Shown: piece after piece, positions 33,827 through 42,230 of the stretch
Layout: each line of letters starts with the position of its first letter
Numbering within the stretch: position 1 is the stretch's first letter
Assembly: GCF_000155975.1 (NCBI RefSeq)
Contig: NZ_GG730299.1
Span: 558,305-622,304 of the forward strand
Length of the DNA: 64,000 bases
Direction of reading: 5' to 3'
From: Citrobacter youngae ATCC 29220
GTDB lineage: Bacteria; Pseudomonadota; Gammaproteobacteria; Enterobacterales; Enterobacteriaceae
Notes under the pieces: model-generated
The model's input: only the letters and a program-made list of their open reading frames with translations
Database searches by the model: none
Told to the model about the DNA's origin: nothing
Position numbers and translations under genes: made by a program

Positions 33827-34900
33827 ATGATAAAGCTAAATTGTCCTATTGTTCCAGATATATCTAAGTATACATCACTAATAGAAAAAATTAATGAAAA
33901 TGGATGGTATACAAATTTTGGGCCAATGCATGAAGAACTAACAGAACGATTATCATTATATCTTGGAGTTGATAATTTACTATTGGTCTCAAATGGAACA
34001 TTAGCGCTTCAGGTTGCGTATGAAACTCTAGGTGTCAAAAGAGCAATAACCACACCATATAGCTTTGTTGCAACTGCATCAACGTTAGCTTGGCAAAAAA
34101 AAGATATTATTTATGCAGATGTTCAAAAAGAAACCGGTAATATTTGTTTCGATAATGTTCAAAATATATTAAATGAAAAAAATGATTATGATAGTGTAGT
34201 AGCGACACATGTATTCGGAAATCCATGCGAAGTTGATAAGTTTATAGACTTAGATAAAAAAGTAAATGTGATATATGATGCCGCGCATGCTTTTGGTGTA
34301 AAGAATAAAGGTAAAAGCATCCTGAGTTATGGAGATGCCAGTACGATTAGTTTTCATGCAACGAAAGTTTTTCACACTATAGAAGGTGGGGCGATTGTTT
34401 TTAAGACAAAAGCTCATTTTGAGGAAGCTAAGCGATTAATCAATTTCGGTATAGAGTTAGATAAAGGCATTCAATCTGTTGGTATAAATGCAAAACTAAA
34501 TGAATACCAAGCAGCTGCAGGCCTTGTGTTAATGGATAATATTGGCGAAATTATAGATAAAAGGGTCAGTTTATTCGAATTATATCGCGAGTCTCTAGAT
34601 GATGTTATTGCTATGCCTAAATGGCTAGAAGGCTCAACCTATAATGGCGCGTATATGCCGATTTTTTGTGATAGTGAAGAACAGCTTATCCTCTTAATGG
34701 AAAAATTAGGAGCTTGTGGTATTCAGACAAGAAGATACTTTTATCCATCATTAAATAATGTTATTAAAGCTAATGATACAAGCTGTACTTCGAATTCGGA
34801 TGATCTGGCCAGACGATCACTGTGTCTTCCACTACATTATTATATGACAAAAAAAGACGTACTAACTGTAACTGAAAATATAAAGAAAGTTTTAAAATAA
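33827..34900 (+). CDS. vioA: VioA-like dTDP-4-keto-6-deoxyglucose aminotransferase (DegT/DnrJ/EryC1)
   Basis: PLP-dependent sugar aminotransferase that by family and context should turn the RmlB product into dTDP-4-amino-4,6-dideoxy-D-glucose (Qui4N). The N-terminal pattern (WYTNFGPMHEELTERLSLYLG) and SNGTLAL fit the VioA group. The cofactor lysine is Lys180 in SFHATKVFHT, and DAAHA (151-155) holds the ring-pairing aspartate. 357 residues, complete, strongly AT-rich. No 3,4-ketoisomerase of the FdtA/QdtA type is nearby, which argues against a 3-amino sugar. The product could instead be the galacto epimer (Fuc4N); sequence alone does not decide. Confidence 0.75.
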   Translation: MIKLNCPIVPDISKYTSLIEKINENGWYTNFGPMHEELTERLSLYLGVDNLLLVSNGTLALQVAYETLGVKRAITTPYSFVATASTLAWQKKDIIYADVQKETGNICFDNVQNILNEKNDYDSVVATHVFGNPCEVDKFIDLDKKVNVIYDAAHAFGVKNKGKSILSYGDASTISFHATKVFHTIEGGAIVFKTKAHFEEAKRLINFGIELDKGIQSVGINAKLNEYQAAAGLVLMDNIGEIIDKRVSLFELYRESLDDVIAMPKWLEGSTYNGAYMPIFCDSEEQLILLMEKLGACGIQTRRYFYPSLNNVIKANDTSCTSNSDDLARRSLCLPLHYYMTKKDVLTVTENIKKVLK

Positions 34901-34913
34901 AAAAGGAATGGAA

Positions 34914-35618
34914 ATGAAAGTAGGAATAATGCAGCCATATTTTTTCCCTTATGTTGGATATTTTCAGCTTGCTAGTGCAGTTGACAAATTTGTTATTTAT
35001 GATGACATAGAGTTTTCAAAGAAAGGGTGGATTCAGAGAAATCGAATATTGATTAATAAACAGCCAACAACCTTTAGTATAGCTCTTAAAAAAGATTCAG
35101 ACTATTTGGACATAGTACAAAGAGAGTTGGCTGATACCTTTGATCGTATGAAACTATGTAGACAAATACAAGGTGCATATAGGAAAGCACCATATTTTAA
35201 TGAAGTATATAAATTACTAGAAGATATAATATTGTATGAGGATAATAATTTATTTAATTATATTAAAAACTCAGTGGTACAGTTATTAAATATATTAAAT
35301 ATTGATGTCGAATTAGTTACTTCCTCGGCTTTAAATTTATCCAGAGACTATAAGTCACAGGAGCGTGTTATTCGTACGTGTATTGCACTGGGAGCTGATG
35401 AATATATTAACCCACCCGGTGGTTTAGAATTGTATACGGAATCTGAATTCGTAAAGAATGGATTAAAGTTAAAGTTCCTGGAACCTGTGATAGAACCTTA
35501 TCAGCAGTCAGTTGATTCATTTATTTCCCATCTTTCTATTATTGATGTAATGATGTGGAATGGTCTCGAAAAGACTCAACAAATGGCGCACAAAAATGCA
35601 TTCATACAAAATAGCTAA
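34914..35618 (+). CDS. WbqC-family protein, candidate sugar N-acylation enzyme
   Basis: Member of the WbqC-like family found next to amino-sugar genes in many O-antigen loci. Signature stretches are MQPYFFPYVGYFQL (6-19) and YDDIEFSKKGWIQRNRI (29-45), with a later NPPGG. I choose the ATG at 34914 (234 residues) because AAGG then has normal spacing; the ATG at 34908 is too close to it. The family's reaction is not known to me with certainty. From memory, wbqC was named in E. coli O121/Shigella dysenteriae 7, whose O-antigen carries N-acetylglycyl-Qui4N, so a role in attaching an aminoacyl group to the 4-amino sugar is an attractive inference. Confidence 0.7.
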   Translation: MKVGIMQPYFFPYVGYFQLASAVDKFVIYDDIEFSKKGWIQRNRILINKQPTTFSIALKKDSDYLDIVQRELADTFDRMKLCRQIQGAYRKAPYFNEVYKLLEDIILYEDNNLFNYIKNSVVQLLNILNIDVELVTSSALNLSRDYKSQERVIRTCIALGADEYINPPGGLELYTESEFVKNGLKLKFLEPVIEPYQQSVDSFISHLSIIDVMMWNGLEKTQQMAHKNAFIQNS

Positions 35619-36054
35619 GGTCGATGAGTTTTCAGCAGCAGGTTTTATTGATTTTGTGGTAAGGAATGATGTTTTTTTTACGCCACCTCTTTCACAACGT
35701 GTGGTGCTACATAATTACATAACGAAACTTTTGGAAAATGCAAGGAGTTATCTTCTTCTTATGGATGAAGATAACGAAATTGCCTGTGCTGTATCCTGCT
35801 ATGTGAATAGAAAAGAGTTTGCTTTTATAACGATGGTACTCACCGATCATAAATTCAAAGGCAAAGGGTATGCTCGAATACTGTTGCAACATGTGTTGTC
35901 TGATATTGGTACATATGGCCACTCTGAGGTACGGTTAGAAGTACACAAAGATAATAAGGCAGCAATCGGATTATACAAAAGTCTAGGTTTTTCGATATTA
36001 CAAACTCATAAAGATGTTTACTATATCATGACATTGGTGTCACATGATAAATAA
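35596..36054 (+). CDS. GNAT-family N-acetyltransferase
   Basis: Small acetyl-CoA-dependent transferase, 152 residues from the ATG at 35596. An in-frame ATG at 35560 would add 12 residues; neither start has a strong Shine-Dalgarno, and both overlap the preceding gene, suggesting coupled translation. The acetyl-CoA loop is LTDHKFKGKGYARILL (GKGYA at 89-93), and the late GNAT motif is VHKDNKAAIGLYKSLGF (117-133). Lying between the WbqC-family gene and wzx, it probably acetylates either the 4-amino group itself or a glycyl group placed on it. Confidence 0.75.
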   Translation: MHSYKIAKVDEFSAAGFIDFVVRNDVFFTPPLSQRVVLHNYITKLLENARSYLLLMDEDNEIACAVSCYVNRKEFAFITMVLTDHKFKGKGYARILLQHVLSDIGTYGHSEVRLEVHKDNKAAIGLYKSLGFSILQTHKDVYYIMTLVSHDK

Positions 36055-37585
36055 GTTATTTGTTAATGTAGTGGCTAACTATATAGGACAAGTATACATT
36101 GCAATCGTTGGGATTGCGGTAGTTCCTATATATCTATCAAAGCTCGGAAGTGAAGGTTTTGGGCTGGTTTCATTTTTCACATTATTGCAATCATTACTAG
36201 TTGTATTAGATTTAGGCATCTCATCCACTTTATCCAGAGAGGTGGCTATTTTAAAATCTAAGGCTGGCTATTTGCCAGTCTTTAAAAAAATATTAAAATT
36301 TGTGATTATTGCTTTTCTGATTGTGGCAGTTTTGATCATTGGAAGCATCAATTTTTCCAAAGAAATAATAGCGACAAAATGGCTGAATACATCAGGTACT
36401 AACTTATTTTTAGTAGAATATTCACTCTCTATCATTGGAGTAATTATTGCTTTAAGGTGGTGTGCTGGTCCATTCAAAAGCGTTATTCTTGGTTGTGAAG
36501 AGCAAATTAAATTCAATATAATAAATACTATAGTTGCTACGTTAAGGTTTGTGATAGTAATACCAGTAATGTCTTTTTATGGTAATAATGTTAAAGTTTT
36601 TTTTACATATCAACTCTTGGCCGCAATAATTGAATTTGTATTATTTTTACTATTGTCTATATTCTGTTTTAAAAAAATAGAGAAAGAAGTCAAAGAAGAT
36701 ACCCACAGTTCATTTACTCATGAGTTTTATTCAGAGATTAAGCGAGTGGGAAAATTCTCTTGTGGCATTGCACTGACATCCGCAGCATGGATAGCGATCA
36801 GTCAATCAGATAAAATAATTCTTAGCAAGTTCTTAACTATCTCTGATTATGGGATGTTTTCTGTAGCTGCAACTATTGCAGGTGGTATATTAATTCTGAG
36901 CACTCCGATATCACAAGCTATATTACCCAGGATGAGCTCATTATATAGCGATGGTGATCTCGATGGCCTATATAATGTATATTCTTTAGCTTCAAAGGGG
37001 GTGATTAGTTTACTTGCGCCGATATCGTTGGTAATGGCAGCAAATTCAGAATTGGTTTTATCTGTTTGGACTGGAAATAATGTTATTGCCACTCACTCAG
37101 CAGATGTTTTAACTTGTTATGCTTTAGGTAATTTATTTTTTGCTATTGCTGCATTTCCATATTATCTGCAATATGCTTTTGGTCAGATTAGATTACATGT
37201 ATATGGGAATATTTTCTTCATAATCATTATTATTCCTAGTTTAATTTTATCAATTAAAACTTTTGGAGCTATTGGTGCTGGTTATGTTTGGCTAATGCAA
37301 AATGCTATTTTCCTTATTCTTTGGAGTTGGTTTATTCATGGGCGATTTATTCGTTCTAAACGTATAGCATGGCTCATAAGTGACGTATTAGTAACTTTAA
37401 TACCTACAATACTAATTATTATAATATTCAAAATAATTTACCCTTCAGAAGAACATGGCCGCATGTTTTCGTTTTTTATTCTGGCATCACAATCTGTAAT
37501 AGCCTTTTTATCAACTATATTAGCAGACGCTAGAGTAAGAAAAATTATAAAAATAAAAATAATTAAGAGGAAATATGAAATTTAA
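36044..37585 (+). CDS. wzx: O-antigen repeat-unit flippase Wzx
   Basis: Polytopic MOP/PST-type inner-membrane protein of 513 residues with about 12-14 hydrophobic segments, starting KLFVNVVANYIGQVYIAIVGI, typical of Wzx. It should flip the finished undecaprenyl-diphosphate repeat to the periplasm. It overlaps the upstream acetyltransferase gene by 11 bases and the downstream wzy by 11 bases. Very AT-rich and rich in rare codons such as ATA and AGA, as usual for serotype-specific flippases. It is clearly different from WzxC of the colanic acid operon. Confidence 0.9.
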   Translation: MINKLFVNVVANYIGQVYIAIVGIAVVPIYLSKLGSEGFGLVSFFTLLQSLLVVLDLGISSTLSREVAILKSKAGYLPVFKKILKFVIIAFLIVAVLIIGSINFSKEIIATKWLNTSGTNLFLVEYSLSIIGVIIALRWCAGPFKSVILGCEEQIKFNIINTIVATLRFVIVIPVMSFYGNNVKVFFTYQLLAAIIEFVLFLLLSIFCFKKIEKEVKEDTHSSFTHEFYSEIKRVGKFSCGIALTSAAWIAISQSDKIILSKFLTISDYGMFSVAATIAGGILILSTPISQAILPRMSSLYSDGDLDGLYNVYSLASKGVISLLAPISLVMAANSELVLSVWTGNNVIATHSADVLTCYALGNLFFAIAAFPYYLQYAFGQIRLHVYGNIFFIIIIIPSLILSIKTFGAIGAGYVWLMQNAIFLILWSWFIHGRFIRSKRIAWLISDVLVTLIPTILIIIIFKIIYPSEEHGRMFSFFILASQSVIAFLSTILADARVRKIIKIKIIKRKYEI

Positions 37586-38762
37586 GATTACTGATGCGCG
37601 AGTGATTATTTTTCTGATCTATCTTGTCCCTAATCTTATCGCTTTTATTTTGTCTAGTAGTCAAGGCAATATCTTGGTAGAAAGTTACTCCTTTAGTTAT
37701 GAATCAATAAATGGGGTTATAGGTTTTGGGTATGTTATCTTTTCATTGATATTTATCACTGTTGGATATTTTGTATTTTCGAATATATGTTATCCAAAGA
37801 ATAAACCCTTAGCAGAATTAGGTTATACCCAATGTACTAGAATTGGATTTTTTATCTTTATCATTCAATTTCTTTTTATCATTTTTAATAGGTATTATGG
37901 GTTAAACATAGCCGGTGCTGAGATCGATATCAGTGCCAGCCCAGTAGTCTTGCGTTATTTTTTTGTTATCTTAAATCCTGATATATTCTTCCTTATCTAT
38001 GCTTGTAAATCTGCTAACAATAATTTATTCAAAGTTAACTGTGTGATCTATTTATCTTCAACCATTTTAAGAGGTTGGAGTGGGGGGATTGTATTTCTGT
38101 TCTTAATATTTCTCTGCAGATCTAACGCAATTAAAATTGGTCTGAAAGCAATACTTCTTTGTTGTCTTCTTATTCTTATTTCACCATTTATAATGGAAAT
38201 TAAATGGTTTATCAGATCTAATGGCATGGAATCTGCTAATTTATTTTCAACGATTCACTATAGCGAAGCTCTTTACCAATTTTTTGAATATTTGGTCTAT
38301 AGATTACAACAGTTAACAAATGTCATTTTTCTTACCGACAGAGTTGGTTATTTCTCTCTTTTATATCAACAGAATGAAATAGTTCCATATTGGGGAGAGA
38401 TTTTAGGACTTAAGAATATTTATCAGGCTTCATATCCAAATGCACTTCCATTAGGCCAATGGCTAGGTGGAAGTATTGAAAATACGGTTGTATCATGGAA
38501 CTCCAACCCAGGTCTCGCAGGATGGATTATCTTACTTTCGAACTATTCGCTGATTTCAGCTGGTCTTGCAATCTTGGTTGTAATTGTTTCTTTATTCTTT
38601 AATATATACTTTTCATCTCTAATTGGTGGTGAGGTTTTAAAGAAATTCTCTTATGTCTTTTGCATTCTCTATCTTTTTCCAGGATGGATGGGAATGTACA
38701 TTAATCTATTATTTTATTTCGTTATTTGGCTTGTGATATGTAAATTCTTAAGGGTTAAATGA
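37575..38762 (+). CDS. wzy: O-antigen polymerase Wzy
   Basis: Polytopic inner-membrane protein of 395 residues with about ten to eleven hydrophobic segments and a long hydrophilic loop around residues 260-315, the usual layout of Wzy polymerases. No catalytic motif is diagnostic. The call rests on topology, the overlap with wzx and the lack of another candidate. It would join repeat units in the periplasm, with WzzB (encoded at 47.7 kb) setting chain length. Strongly AT-rich, so probably serotype-specific. Confidence 0.8.
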   Translation: MKFKITDARVIIFLIYLVPNLIAFILSSSQGNILVESYSFSYESINGVIGFGYVIFSLIFITVGYFVFSNICYPKNKPLAELGYTQCTRIGFFIFIIQFLFIIFNRYYGLNIAGAEIDISASPVVLRYFFVILNPDIFFLIYACKSANNNLFKVNCVIYLSSTILRGWSGGIVFLFLIFLCRSNAIKIGLKAILLCCLLILISPFIMEIKWFIRSNGMESANLFSTIHYSEALYQFFEYLVYRLQQLTNVIFLTDRVGYFSLLYQQNEIVPYWGEILGLKNIYQASYPNALPLGQWLGGSIENTVVSWNSNPGLAGWIILLSNYSLISAGLAILVVIVSLFFNIYFSSLIGGEVLKKFSYVFCILYLFPGWMGMYINLLFYFVIWLVICKFLRVK

Positions 38763-39653
38763 ATGAAACTTAGCGTATGTGTAAGTACATATAACCAAGA
38801 AAAATATATTAAAGAATGTCTTGATAGTATTGATATGCAGGAAATGGAAATTCCTTTTGAAATCATTGTTGGGGTTGATAAATCCTCTGATAATACTTTG
38901 AGAATAGTTTCAAATTTCGCTAAAACAGCAACTAATACTGTAAAAATAATAACGAGTGACACTCAGGTTGGGGCATCCGAAAATTATTTAAGGATTCACC
39001 AAATAGCCAATGGTGAGTATGTTTGTCACATCGATGGCGATGATTTAATGTTGCAGGGAAAATTACAAAAGCAGGTTTCCATATTAGATAGTAATTCAAA
39101 TTTAAGTGCTGTATGGCACAATATGGTATTATTTTCTGATTCAGGCGATGTTTTAAATCCCAGCTATGCGTCTGTGTGGGATGGTGAGATCTCATTAAGT
39201 GATTTTCTTCGCGTTGGATTCGTTTCAGCACATTCTTCGATTATGTACAGGCGTGATTGCAGGAGCACTTACAAATACGACTACCCAGTTCCAGATTATG
39301 CAATATTCTTAGACCTTTTAGCCCATGGCAATGGATACGTTATTAATCAATCCCTTGGTCAATACAGACACAATGTTGTTTCCGGTGTTATTAGCACAGG
39401 ATTTAATAGTTTCAAAGGTAATCTATATCGCTCATTATATGATTTTGTACTGACGGCCGATGGAAGTAGTTATAGGAAAAAAGATATATTTTGTTTCTCT
39501 CTATTGAATTTGTTATCTGACATTAAGTCGAAAAGGGGAGTAGATAGACTATTAATGCTCATTTTGAAAAAAAATATATCACTAGTAAATCCCTTTATAC
39601 TAATTGACAGCTATAAGAAAATGATGCTCGCTAGTGTCAAGAAAAAAGGATAG
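38763..39653 (+). CDS. O-antigen glycosyltransferase, GT2
   Basis: Family 2 GT-A transferase of 296 residues. The fold start KLSVCVSTYNQEKYI, the aspartate-serine segment GVDKSSDNT and the metal-binding HIDGDD near residue 95 are all present. It starts directly after the wzy stop. Donor and linkage cannot be read from the sequence; it is one of two classical transferases in the cluster. Confidence 0.85.
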   Translation: MKLSVCVSTYNQEKYIKECLDSIDMQEMEIPFEIIVGVDKSSDNTLRIVSNFAKTATNTVKIITSDTQVGASENYLRIHQIANGEYVCHIDGDDLMLQGKLQKQVSILDSNSNLSAVWHNMVLFSDSGDVLNPSYASVWDGEISLSDFLRVGFVSAHSSIMYRRDCRSTYKYDYPVPDYAIFLDLLAHGNGYVINQSLGQYRHNVVSGVISTGFNSFKGNLYRSLYDFVLTADGSSYRKKDIFCFSLLNLLSDIKSKRGVDRLLMLILKKNISLVNPFILIDSYKKMMLASVKKKG

Positions 39654-39657
39654 CGTA

Positions 39658-40308
39658 ATGAAAAAAGCTATAGTTGATGTATGTGATACGCTTTATTATA
39701 GTAATACTACGTTTGATTTTCTTGAAAGGATCGCGTCAAAAAAACTGGAAACCCAGCTATTAGCTTTGCGTAGAGTAAGAAGTCTGATGCTGTTGAATTC
39801 AGTACTCTTTAAATTATTTAAAGTAGATATTTATCGACGATTGTGTATTTATAAACTCCTGTCAGGAAAAAAATTATCAGAAATAAAGTCAGAGAGTGAA
39901 TTATTTTATGAAAATGTTTTATGTGCAAAGAAGATTATTGAAACGCATGCAATAATAAAAAAGTTGAGTGAAGATTTTCAATTCATCCTCTGTTCCGCCT
40001 CAATTGATCCTGTAGTCGAAGTGATAGCTGATAAAATGGGGTGTGAACAATTTTTTAGTACTCGCCTTATAGCAAAAGATGGTATTTATACAGGGCAGAT
40101 TTTCGTAGATTTGTTAGGCCGGAAAGGTAAGCATCTAAAAGAAGCAGATGTAAGCTATAACTTAGTTATCACGGACAACAAAAGTGATATAGATTTAATA
40201 GAAACCTGCGGAAAAGCCATAATAATTTCAGAAGAGAAAAATATTAACTTTTGGAATGATTTTAAATTAAAAAATAAGACAATGGATATCAAGGTTGTGA
40301 TTGTATGA
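39658..40308 (+). CDS. HAD phosphatase, candidate phosphoribosyl-phosphatase of a sugar-transfer module
   Basis: SerB-like HAD-family protein, 216 residues from the ATG at 39658, which has a good AAGGA signal; an in-frame ATG at 39634 is inside the previous gene. Motif I is D7-V-C9-D-T-L, motif II the serines of CSAS (113, 115), motif III a lysine in GRKGK, and motif IV TDNKSD with Asp173 and Asp177. The second aspartate of motif I, normally the general acid, is Cys9 here. Its stop overlaps the start of the UbiA-like gene by four bases (ATGA). I infer that it removes a 5-phosphate after that partner transfers a phosphopentosyl group. Confidence 0.7.
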   Translation: MKKAIVDVCDTLYYSNTTFDFLERIASKKLETQLLALRRVRSLMLLNSVLFKLFKVDIYRRLCIYKLLSGKKLSEIKSESELFYENVLCAKKIIETHAIIKKLSEDFQFILCSASIDPVVEVIADKMGCEQFFSTRLIAKDGIYTGQIFVDLLGRKGKHLKEADVSYNLVITDNKSDIDLIETCGKAIIISEEKNINFWNDFKLKNKTMDIKVVIV

Positions 40309-41075
40309 TTTTCTATTATGTGCCAATTTTATATTTATTCCACACGAGATTAAAATCACTCCCGGAAATTATCTCATGGACTATATTTTATTTGCTTCCA
40401 ATGTTTGTAATAGGATGCAATATAGTAACTATAAGTAATGTTATTTATATAATACTTGCAATTTTATTTGTTTATACCTTTTATGAGGTTGGCTATATAT
40501 TCAACGATGCTATTTTAATTAAAAAGGAAAAAAATCCAACGCTACGCCTAACAGATATTGAACTTGAATATGTATATCATAATTTCTCTAAGATTATGAT
40601 TGTTAGGACTGTTTGGGCAATATTAATTCTTTCTTTGTTCTATTTTTCTGGTTTCCACTATATATCGGCTAGCCTAGGTGGCATTGGAATTCTATTGATA
40701 TATTATTTTTATAATACGACAAGAAGTAATTTTAGTGCTATCTTATATTATTTGCTTATTAGTTTTAGGTTTTGTGTTCCTTTTATGATCCTTTACCAAC
40801 ATTTCCCTCTCTTGCTTCTGGTGATGCAGCCACTTTTGGCAACATTGGAATACACTGGAAAGAAAAAACTTTTCAATGGAATGTTTACATGGTTTATAGC
40901 TTACAAGGAGTACACACGATTTATTTGGTATCTCATAATATCCTCTCTTATCTATGTTCTTCCTTTCCCTTTGGGTGAGGATATCCGCTCAAGTATGTTA
41001 TTTGTTGCGTTAATGGGGCTGATGTTTAGAAGTGTGATTTTGTTTAAAATGGTTGTAAAAAAATGTAAGGCTTAG
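40305..41075 (+). CDS. UbiA-like membrane protein, candidate phosphoribosyl (pentofuranosyl) transferase
   Basis: Membrane protein of 256 residues with seven to nine hydrophobic segments. Residues 60-81 (YEVGYIFND, then KKEKNPTLR) resemble the first Asp-rich motif of the UbiA superfamily, as in mycobacterial decaprenylphosphoryl-phosphoribose synthase. N67 and D68 and the PTxR end are kept, but the second aspartate is Leu71 and the third is Glu75. UbiA proteins transfer prenyl groups or, in mycobacteria, a phosphoribosyl group from phosphoribosyl diphosphate. Coupling to a HAD phosphatase inside an O-antigen cluster suggests phosphopentose transfer to a lipid or glycan. The ATGA overlap fixes the start. 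Function is unproven. Confidence 0.6.
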   Translation: MIFYYVPILYLFHTRLKSLPEIISWTIFYLLPMFVIGCNIVTISNVIYIILAILFVYTFYEVGYIFNDAILIKKEKNPTLRLTDIELEYVYHNFSKIMIVRTVWAILILSLFYFSGFHYISASLGGIGILLIYYFYNTTRSNFSAILYYLLISFRFCVPFMILYQHFPLLLLVMQPLLATLEYTGKKKLFNGMFTWFIAYKEYTRFIWYLIISSLIYVLPFPLGEDIRSSMLFVALMGLMFRSVILFKMVVKKCKA

Positions 41076-41084
41076 AACATAGAT

Positions 41085-42230
41085 ATGAAAATTACACTAG
41101 TTACTAACACCGTATCATCAATATTCTATTTTAGGTTAAGGCTAATTTCTAGACTTCTTCAAGACCATCATCAGATATCAATTCTTATTCCAGAAACTGA
41201 GTCCATGAATCCACTAATCGTGGACCTTAAAAAATTAGGTGTTTTGGTGCTTTTTTATAACGCATCAAGAACTGGCATTAATCCCTTTACAGAATTCCTA
41301 ACTATAATTTCTCTTTATAAAGTAATAAAAAAGATCAGTCCTGATGTAGTATTTTCTTTTTTCCCAAAACCAATTATTTTTGGTTCTATAGCCGCAAAGT
41401 TGGCTGGAGTAAAACGTATTGTTTCTATGTTTGAGGGGCTCGGTTTTTGTTTTACTAAACGCCCAGAAAAGGATGGCGTAAAGAAAGTAATTCTTAGGGT
41501 AGTACAACTTTCTCTATATAAAATGTTTTTGAGGTTATCTGATTCTGTTTTATTTTTGAATATTGATGATGCAAATGAACTAATAAAAAAACATAATATT
41601 AAAGTCAGGCATCATCAGGTGGTCGGTGGTATTGGGGTTAATTTGGAAACGTATAGGTTGAAAGACCTGACCTATAAAAATGGACCACTAACGTTTACTA
41701 TGGTATCACGATTGCTAATTGATAAGGGTATTCGTGAGTATGTTTCTGCCGCAGAAATTGTTAAGAGAGAATATCCAGATACGATTTTCCAAGTTATTGG
41801 TGGAATGGATGATAATCTTGGTGGTATATCTTATCCGGAGTTTGAAAAATGGAAATCTGATAATAATGTTGTTTTCACTGGTGTAATTAGCAATGTTATT
41901 GATATTTTGAAGAGTTCTGACGTTTTTGTTCTTCCATCCTATCGCGAGGGAGTGCCACGAAGTAGTCAAGAGGCTCTTGCTGTTGGCTTACCTATTATTA
42001 CTACAGATGTGCCTGGGTGCAAAGAAACGGTAGTTGACGGTGTTAACGGATTTCTCGTACCACCTTGGGACTCAGAATCATTATCCAAAAAAATGATAGA
42101 GCTTATTGAAAACAAAAAATTACTTATAGAAATGGGAAAACAAAGTAGATTGTTAGCAGAGAATAGGTTCGATGAAGAAAGTTTTTGTGACAGGGTGATC
42201 AATATATTGATTAATAGAAAATGTAATTAA
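41085..42230 (+). CDS. O-antigen glycosyltransferase, GT4
   Basis: GT-B-fold family 4 retaining transferase of 381 residues. The donor domain starts near TFTMVSRLLIDKGI (residues 203-216), and the family EX7E is Glu288 to Glu296 in SYREGVPRSSQEALA. The N-terminal half contains PKPIIFGSIAAKLAGV and MFEGLGFCF, patterns common in transferases acting on lipid-linked N-acetylhexosamine acceptors, though that is a loose indication. It lies nine bases after the UbiA-like gene; a 243-base gap then precedes rmlA. Confidence 0.87.
   Translation: MKITLVTNTVSSIFYFRLRLISRLLQDHHQISILIPETESMNPLIVDLKKLGVLVLFYNASRTGINPFTEFLTIISLYKVIKKISPDVVFSFFPKPIIFGSIAAKLAGVKRIVSMFEGLGFCFTKRPEKDGVKKVILRVVQLSLYKMFLRLSDSVLFLNIDDANELIKKHNIKVRHHQVVGGIGVNLETYRLKDLTYKNGPLTFTMVSRLLIDKGIREYVSAAEIVKREYPDTIFQVIGGMDDNLGGISYPEFEKWKSDNNVVFTGVISNVIDILKSSDVFVLPSYREGVPRSSQEALAVGLPIITTDVPGCKETVVDGVNGFLVPPWDSESLSKKMIELIENKKLLIEMGKQSRLLAENRFDEESFCDRVINILINRKCN

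Follow-up and report, generated by a model that had tools for sequence, protein, structure and literature searches.

A pair of genes encoding a HAD phosphatase and a polytopic membrane protein (MP) was identified inside the Wzx/Wzy O-antigen cluster of Citrobacter youngae ATCC 29220, and we hold with good confidence that this pair adds ribofuranose (Ribf). We also favour, if less firmly, the more specific reading in which the two proteins form a two-polypeptide ribofuranosyltransferase of O-unit assembly. MP would be a candidate PRPP-dependent glycan phosphoribosyltransferase, to judge from its modelled fold, and the residue placed on the O-unit of strain ATCC 29220 would be ribofuranose. The evidence comes from the gene content of the window (the whole stretch of DNA that was analysed, 64,000 nucleotides), from the occurrence of the pair in E. 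coli O5, and from the predicted fold, conserved residues and distribution of the two proteins.

Gene organization of the O-antigen cluster

The cluster has the order rmlB, DegT, WbqC-like, GNAT, wzx, wzy, GT2, HAD, MP, GT4 and rmlA. It is preceded by wcaK-wcaL-wcaM-galF and followed by gnd, ugd and the his operon; the wca, galF, rmlB, rmlA, gnd, ugd and his genes are what we take them to be from their translations. The features discussed below are as follows.

33827..36054, + strand: DegT aminotransferase, WbqC-like protein and GNAT acetyltransferase (PF01041, 1.4e-65; PF08889, 4.1e-64; PF00583, 5.7e-15)
36044..37585, + strand: Wzx flippase, the sole flippase candidate of the cluster (PF01943, 3.1e-16)
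37575..38762, + strand: Wzy O-antigen polymerase (NF033860, 2e-84, above cutoff)
38763..39653, + strand: GT2 glycosyltransferase, upstream neighbour of the HAD gene (PF00535, 2e-21)
39658..40308, + strand: HAD-IB type phosphatase, 216 aa (ATG at 39658, stop at 40308; PF12710, E 5.3e-10)
40305..41075, + strand: MP, 256 aa, predicted UbiA-like fold (ATG at 40305, stop at 41075; AlphaFold2 model, Foldseek)
40503..40547, + strand: codons 67-81 of the MP gene, N67-D68...E75..P78-T79-x-R81 (conservation table, DSSP)
41085..42230, + strand: GT4 glycosyltransferase, downstream neighbour of the MP gene (PF00534, 2.2e-31)

The start of the MP gene overlaps the stop of the HAD gene in ATGA, and the ORF coordinates and Pfam matches confirmed the initial annotation, which had placed this overlap with GT2 and GT4 genes on either side. 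The DegT, WbqC-like and GNAT genes probably constitute, by their family matches, a branch to a dTDP-4-amino-4,6-dideoxyhexose with an acyl substituent in the same O-unit; the best NCBIfam model for the DegT protein was TIGR04427 DesI, below its cutoff. Since separate roles can be given to the remaining genes of the cluster, the pair is the part that needs explanation. No GT-C, second flippase or PPPRS could be identified among the cluster ORFs by using Pfam and NCBIfam. The pair and its flanks gave no DNA match in E. coli, neither the HAD protein nor MP was matched by PADLOC, and a plasmid search with MP found no match.

Occurrence of the pair in E. coli O5 and the link to ribofuranose

In E. 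coli O5 clusters (assigned to O5 by RefSeq wzx/wzy names), the pair is flanked by two GT2 genes, and the rest of the cluster comprises rfbB, rfbA, ketoisomerase, acyltransferase, aminotransferase, wzx and wzy; there are thus two GT2 genes and one flippase, and no GT-C. The O5ac antigen contains alpha-D-GalpNAc-(1->2)-beta-D-Quip3NAc-(1->3)-beta-D-Ribf (PMC9912281). The survey that had been proposed, of pairs of this kind against ribofuranose-containing antigens, found the pair at one locus, O5, whose antigen has beta-D-Ribf. If the fourth O5 residue is Gal, as we assume, three cytoplasmic transfers are needed (Gal, Ribf and Qui3NAc), which equals the two GT2 enzymes plus the pair; this count for Ribf is that of one antigen with one residue assumed. 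Because the other O5 genes cover dTDP-Qui3NAc, Wzx, Wzy and the GT2 enzymes, the pair is the natural candidate for the ribofuranosyl step. The counting also held in a control, O91, which has five residues without Ribf, four glycosyltransferase genes and no pair. The O185 cluster has three glycosyltransferase genes and the pair.

The HAD, MP and PPPRS profiles fired in none of 13 other E. coli O loci, which were picked by similarity of their Qui3N genes, with two being O70, several cut before gnd and a structure to hand for O91 only. E. coli O114 is a second beta-Ribf antigen. Its cluster was sought via the Qui3N genes (60 of 312 matching records, 13 loci opened), and none of the loci was named O114, seven being without an O name.

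A different possibility is that the pair serves a role other than ribofuranose addition, either with another pentofuranose or in a different modification, and that the helical fold of MP is coincidental. MP has no sequence-profile match at all, O5 is the one locus with an antigen structure to hand, and, by eye, epimerase-like ORFs occur close to the pair in two loci (L018 and L022). However, the other genes in O5 are assigned and Ribf is the sugar left without a maker, and we consider such a role distinctly improbable.

The ribofuranose-containing antigen of Hafnia alvei PCM1222 provides a further point of reference. Its cluster was found to be one glycosyltransferase short, which the authors explained via a gtrABC operon; orf04 was ~32% identical to a HAD hydrolase and orf05 ~30% identical to an acyltransferase, both of E. 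coli MS 119-7 (PMC4869667). MS 119-7 proved to be an O5 strain with a true acyltransferase in its cluster as well, and orf05 could be either MP or the acyltransferase, which leaves its assignment ambiguous.

Predicted fold of the membrane protein

MP had no meaningful match in Pfam or NCBIfam, including PF01040, which also matched none of 11 relatives tested; a PDB sequence profile search with MP gave nothing up to E 10. Scanning the C. youngae genome with PF01040 revealed three UbiA genes above cutoff, none of them inside the window. The AlphaFold2 model of MP (14 sequences; pLDDT 89.6, pTM 0.85) was all helix and of membrane type, and it contained no soluble PRTase-like gPRT domain. When this model was compared with the PDB by Foldseek, the nine best matches were A. 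fulgidus UbiA (probability 0.99-1.00, E 0.037-0.1, with no match at E 0.001), and the mycobacterial PRPP enzyme 8j8k ranked 21st (E 1.0). The MP of Citrobacter sp. FP75 gave weaker results (best UbiA E 1.4, probability 0.84). In VIA-align, the window MP scored Z up to 11.4 with isoprenoid synthases, 10.6 with UbiA 4tq4 and 10.1 with 8j8j, which form a tied group, and the FP75 MP scored highest with 4tq4 (11.3) and 10.6 with 8j8j, all tied within 1; it should be noted that Z near 11 falls within the range of unrelated helical bundles. From the models, the fold of MP appears UbiA-like, a conclusion that we hold with moderate confidence.

The comparison by hhalign was extended to several profiles. 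MP against PPPRS gave P 0.0007-0.004, in register of the PPPRS motifs, and block shuffles sometimes scored higher. In this control, which was run on a 21-member MP alignment with a score of 30.0, that score was exceeded by 3 out of 40 block-shuffled PPPRS profiles; a 20-member alignment scored 33.6 against PPPRS, and two loci with out-of-frame translations (L081 and L084) were left out of the final comparison. MP showed no similarity to a UbiA/CyoE profile of 21 sequences (P 0.7-0.8); for PPPRS against UbiA the value was 2e-11. For MP against CDP-alcohol transferase it was 0.04, and against WecA/MraY 0.36-0.8. Because shuffled controls could beat the score and the UbiA/CyoE profile was not matched, a sequence-level kinship of MP with UbiA is not established. 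The initial annotation had called MP UbiA-like and had proposed a structure-prediction check against UbiA and Rv3806c. This label is favoured by the predicted fold, for which UbiA was the best match by Foldseek, but the E-values were weak, isoprenoid synthases reached similar Z-scores and no HMM agreed.

Candidate active site of the membrane protein

In the MP alignment (n=20), P7, Y60, G63, Y64, N67, E75, P78, R81 and N137 were invariant, and R15, D68, T79, R140 and R155 were kept in 18 out of 20 sequences, with D68 changed to N in two members. In the model, R15 precedes the first long helix, N67-R81 runs from the end of the second long helix into the next loop, N137-R140 occupies the end of the fourth helix and its loop, and R155 lies within the next helix. 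The N67-R81 segment resembles the NDxxDxxxD motif of the UbiA superfamily but lacks its +4 Asp: N was found in 20/20 sequences, D at +1 in 18/20, T at +4 in 16/20 (L in the window protein) and E at +8 in 20/20, which makes the family pattern NDxxTxxxE rather than NDxxDxxxD. The PRPP residues of Rv3806c are Asn73, Asp77, Gln135, Tyr138, Lys143 and Lys28, with Mg bound by Asp77 (PMC10994848). By position, N67 of MP may correspond to Asn73, and N137/R140 to Tyr138/Lys143; the position of Asp77 (the +4 Asp) is not conserved in MPs.

The HAD phosphatase

The HAD protein matched PF12710 above the cutoff, and TIGR01490 (HAD-IB, 3e-16) and TIGR00338 (serB, 8e-5) both under their cutoffs. Phosphoserine phosphatases were the best PDB matches of the HAD family profile, and its earlier description as SerB-like was a fair one. 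The features of the HAD class are present (nucleophile Asp, Ser, Lys and an acidic motif IV, D173-N174-x-x-D177), and D7, C9, S113, K156, D173, N174 and D177 were invariant in an alignment of 11 members. Motif I of the window protein reads D-V-C-D-T, with the Ser, Lys and DNxxD motifs kept. The form D-x-C-x-[TS]..NTT was shared by 21 out of 22 loci, in which Cys replaces the second Asp of DxDGT, the usual acid/base; only Paenibacillus has Asp here (DLDGT). From these motifs, the HAD protein is a candidate phosphoribose 5'-phosphatase.

Distribution and linkage of the pair

After removal of duplicates, 22 distinct MP loci were obtained. They were distributed in Enterobacterales outside E. coli (the window, Citrobacter sp. 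FP75, C. werkmanii, Morganella morganii, Buttiauxella noackiae and two other members of the family, L007 and L009), E. coli (O5, O63, O185 and the clusters of strains A36 and ARS-C101), other Pseudomonadota (Acinetobacter genomosp. 15BJ and an Alcanivoracaceae MAG), Bacteroidota (Bacteroidales, Mediterranea, two Phocaeicola, Tannerellaceae and two Niabella) and Bacillota (Paenibacillus contaminans). The relatives were 21-30% identical to the window MP. All 22 loci contained a HAD relative, which was directly upstream of the MP gene in 20, and the association of the two genes exceeds chance. Their junctions mostly overlap or touch (the window and 18 loci). In E. coli O63 (L088 6008-9620), a glycosyltransferase gene and wzy separate the HAD gene from the MP gene; since both genes are kept here although apart, their adjacency is not essential. 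In Acinetobacter genomosp. 15BJ (L023 8782-9738), the MP gene is separated from a short HAD frame by a gene for a DDE transposase. For the five cluster types of E. coli, the annotation is that of an O-antigen locus, and six other neighbourhoods resemble polysaccharide clusters by their translations, six ORFs of which were tested with Pfam.

Protein searches of related genomes gave matches in 5 out of 60 and 7 out of 392 genomes, including the own genome and a rejected locus, L005. The latter was dropped: its match of 76 residues (E 4.7e-4) has an internal stop and overlaps a 531-aa regulator-like ORF at its end. When named genomes were scanned with a profile of an 11-member alignment, at least 14 loci were obtained; a single-sequence MP scan of the same contigs found no relative. 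When 274 genomes of the class were searched with a profile, the own genome alone matched, and thus the family is patchy.

Several side observations were made at these loci. In 34 out of 35 E. coli records (at least 80% query cover), no feature is annotated for MP, and SCZE5 alone lists a hypothetical protein. The O5 records include L012 (8669-9457), L010 and L198, and in L010 and L012 a locus-tag number is skipped at MP. In E. coli X14-3 (L014 8249-9601), an IS1 element occupies the place of the missing middle part of the O5 cluster, and the MP gene is partial. A GT2-type protein with a similar start by eye, LS[LI]Y.KE, recurs near the pair (L012 9453-10280, L018 10776-11612, L015 7381-8211 and L023 10674-11585); it may make a common acceptor or extend the ribose.

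Proposed pathway and alternatives

In the pathway that we propose, MP would take PRPP-Mg at the cytoplasmic face and transfer the 5-phosphoribosyl group, directly and with inversion, onto a hydroxyl group of the O-unit on undecaprenyl-PP, which would yield beta-Ribf-5-P. The HAD protein, going by its family and catalytic motifs, would then remove the 5-phosphate. Finally, a neighbouring glycosyltransferase would extend the ribose, or Wzx would export the finished unit, so that ribofuranose would be part of the main chain. Main-chain Ribf must be added before export by Wzx. An inverting first step would agree with the PRPP-dependent glycan Ribf transferases described so far, which invert and give beta-Ribf (PMC11127046).

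If the pair does add ribofuranose, it probably does so by transfer straight to the glycan, without a lipid-phosphate donor. Two observations point in this direction. First, the two GT2 genes, the lack of a GT-C and the single flippase of O5, together with the beta linkage, favour direct transfer from PRPP over a lipid-phosphate-ribose donor. Second, there is no GT-C, second flippase or PPPRS in the window cluster and no PPPRS fusion in the C. youngae genome, where the search gave two UbiA-type genes only, which favours direct transfer followed by dephosphorylation by the HAD protein.

MP might instead be a divergent polyprenyl-phosphate phosphoribosyltransferase, so that the HAD protein would produce undecaprenyl-phosphate-ribose and a cytoplasmic GT2 or GT4 enzyme would use this lipid donor in O-unit assembly. 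The normal donors of GT2 and GT4 enzymes are nucleotide sugars, O5 would fall one glycosyltransferase short (with its fourth residue assumed as above), and a double inversion would give alpha whereas the Ribf of O5 is beta. We regard this route as unlikely, although the weak profile match lies in register of the PPPRS motifs and the fold and the HAD partner resemble those of ORF15, the maker of farnesyl-P-Ribf (PMC11127046). The mycobacterial analogy of the initial annotation would imply a lipid-phosphate acceptor, which is disfavoured by gene counting in O5 and by the beta linkage. The annotation's proposal that a UbiA-type protein supplies a phosphoribosyl step leading to ribofuranose remains the best reading, given the UbiA-like model and the pair in O5 with beta-D-Ribf, though homology at the sequence level is not part of that support.

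A three-component periplasmic system, in which lipid-P-ribose is flipped and a GT-C of GT136 then attaches the ribose as an alpha side chain, would also involve a HAD-UbiA enzyme. This route is known in the same genus, and a 483-aa HAD-UbiA fusion is encoded in two other Citrobacter genomes (L061 and L062). Nevertheless, the cluster has no GT-C or second flippase, the own genome has no HAD-UbiA fusion and gives only partial matches to the 652-aa ORF beside that fusion, a putative GT-C (best E 5.4e-6, residues 524-648), and the Ribf of O5 is beta; the periplasmic route therefore appears extremely unlikely for the pair. Elsewhere in the genome, a 777-aa ORF (G000:C9:539748-540125, L093) is similar to the C-terminal part of the ORF next to the Citrobacter fusion (28%, E 5.4e-6), and on this similarity a GT-C gene may lie outside the cluster.

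According to the gene assignments in the available text of the Hafnia and Proteus antigen papers, Ribf genes were not found in the clusters of Ribf-containing antigens (PMC4869667, PMC5560731). With the pair as a concrete marker, Ribf could be predicted from sequence, E. coli O63 and O185 included, and the question of what adds beta-Ribf in Wzx/Wzy antigens becomes directly testable. If MP acts on glycans, it would represent a new fold among glycosyltransferases and a tool for glycan engineering, as well as a route to beta-ribofuranose addition that is embedded in the membrane, in contrast to the soluble gPRT/CriT enzymes. The general form of this proposal, that a UbiA-fold protein present in glycan clusters from at least three phyla works as a glycosyltransferase and moves phosphoribose directly from PRPP to a lipid-linked glycan, seems to us evenly balanced between true and false.

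Comparison with known systems

HAD-UbiA phosphoribosyl systems are already known in O-antigen synthesis. C. youngae ORF15 is a HAD-PPPRS fusion of a three-component pentofuranose pathway, in which alpha side chains are added in the periplasm via a lipid donor, a flippase and a GT-C (PMC11127046). The earlier claim of a distinct family of pentofuranosyl transfer enzymes is thus narrowed: MP does belong to a divergent membrane family, but the combination of HAD and UbiA proteins had been published. The pair would share with ORF15 a HAD phosphatase, a UbiA-type PRPP enzyme, an O-antigen locus and a ribofuranose product. The ORF15-type fusion of 483 aa (L061/L062) is one protein with a Pfam UbiA match, NDxxDxxxD and a DLDGT HAD motif, and in L062 the seven ORF15 residues D18, N247, D248, D251, D255, R366 and E369 are all in place. 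In contrast, the pair consists of two proteins, MP has no Pfam match and belongs to the NDxxTxxxE pattern, the HAD motif is DxC, and the cluster contains no GT-C.

With Rv3806c, MP appears to share a UbiA-type fold, the Asn of motif I and, by alignment, a Tyr/Asn...Lys/Arg motif after the fourth helix, and PRPP chemistry would be a further parallel; the mycobacterial system differs in its decaprenyl phosphate acceptor, a separate phosphatase of another family, and the Mg-binding Asp77 that is absent from MP (PMC10994848). As proposed here, the pair resembles the gPRT and PRP enzymes (Klebsiella O4/O7, Hib Bcs3 CriT-CrpP and C. jejuni Cj1432) in PRPP, a glycan acceptor, a HAD 5-phosphatase and beta-Ribf. 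The HAD phosphatase is likewise encoded together with the transferase, in 22 out of 22 loci. However, Hib CriT is alpha/beta PRTase-like (PMC10299916), whereas MP is modelled as an all-helical membrane protein. The beta-Ribf enzymes described, those of Klebsiella included, are PRPP transferase-phosphatase proteins of two modules, and those of C. jejuni (Cj1432) and E. coli K13 resemble CriT. Hafnia PCM1222 shares with O5 a Ribf antigen and with the pair a HAD relative (orf04), while its orf05 was called an acyltransferase relative (PMC4869667). PMC11127046 ascribes every beta-Ribf residue that it encountered to PRPP enzymes of an earlier paper, and the O5 pair may have been noted already in that paper. 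The putative Ribf gene names drpA/drpB occurred in none of the papers searched for them. Compared with these systems, what appears to be new in the pair is a divergent membrane family without the +4 Asp, the DxC motif of its HAD partner and, if our reading is right, a use in cytoplasmic assembly.
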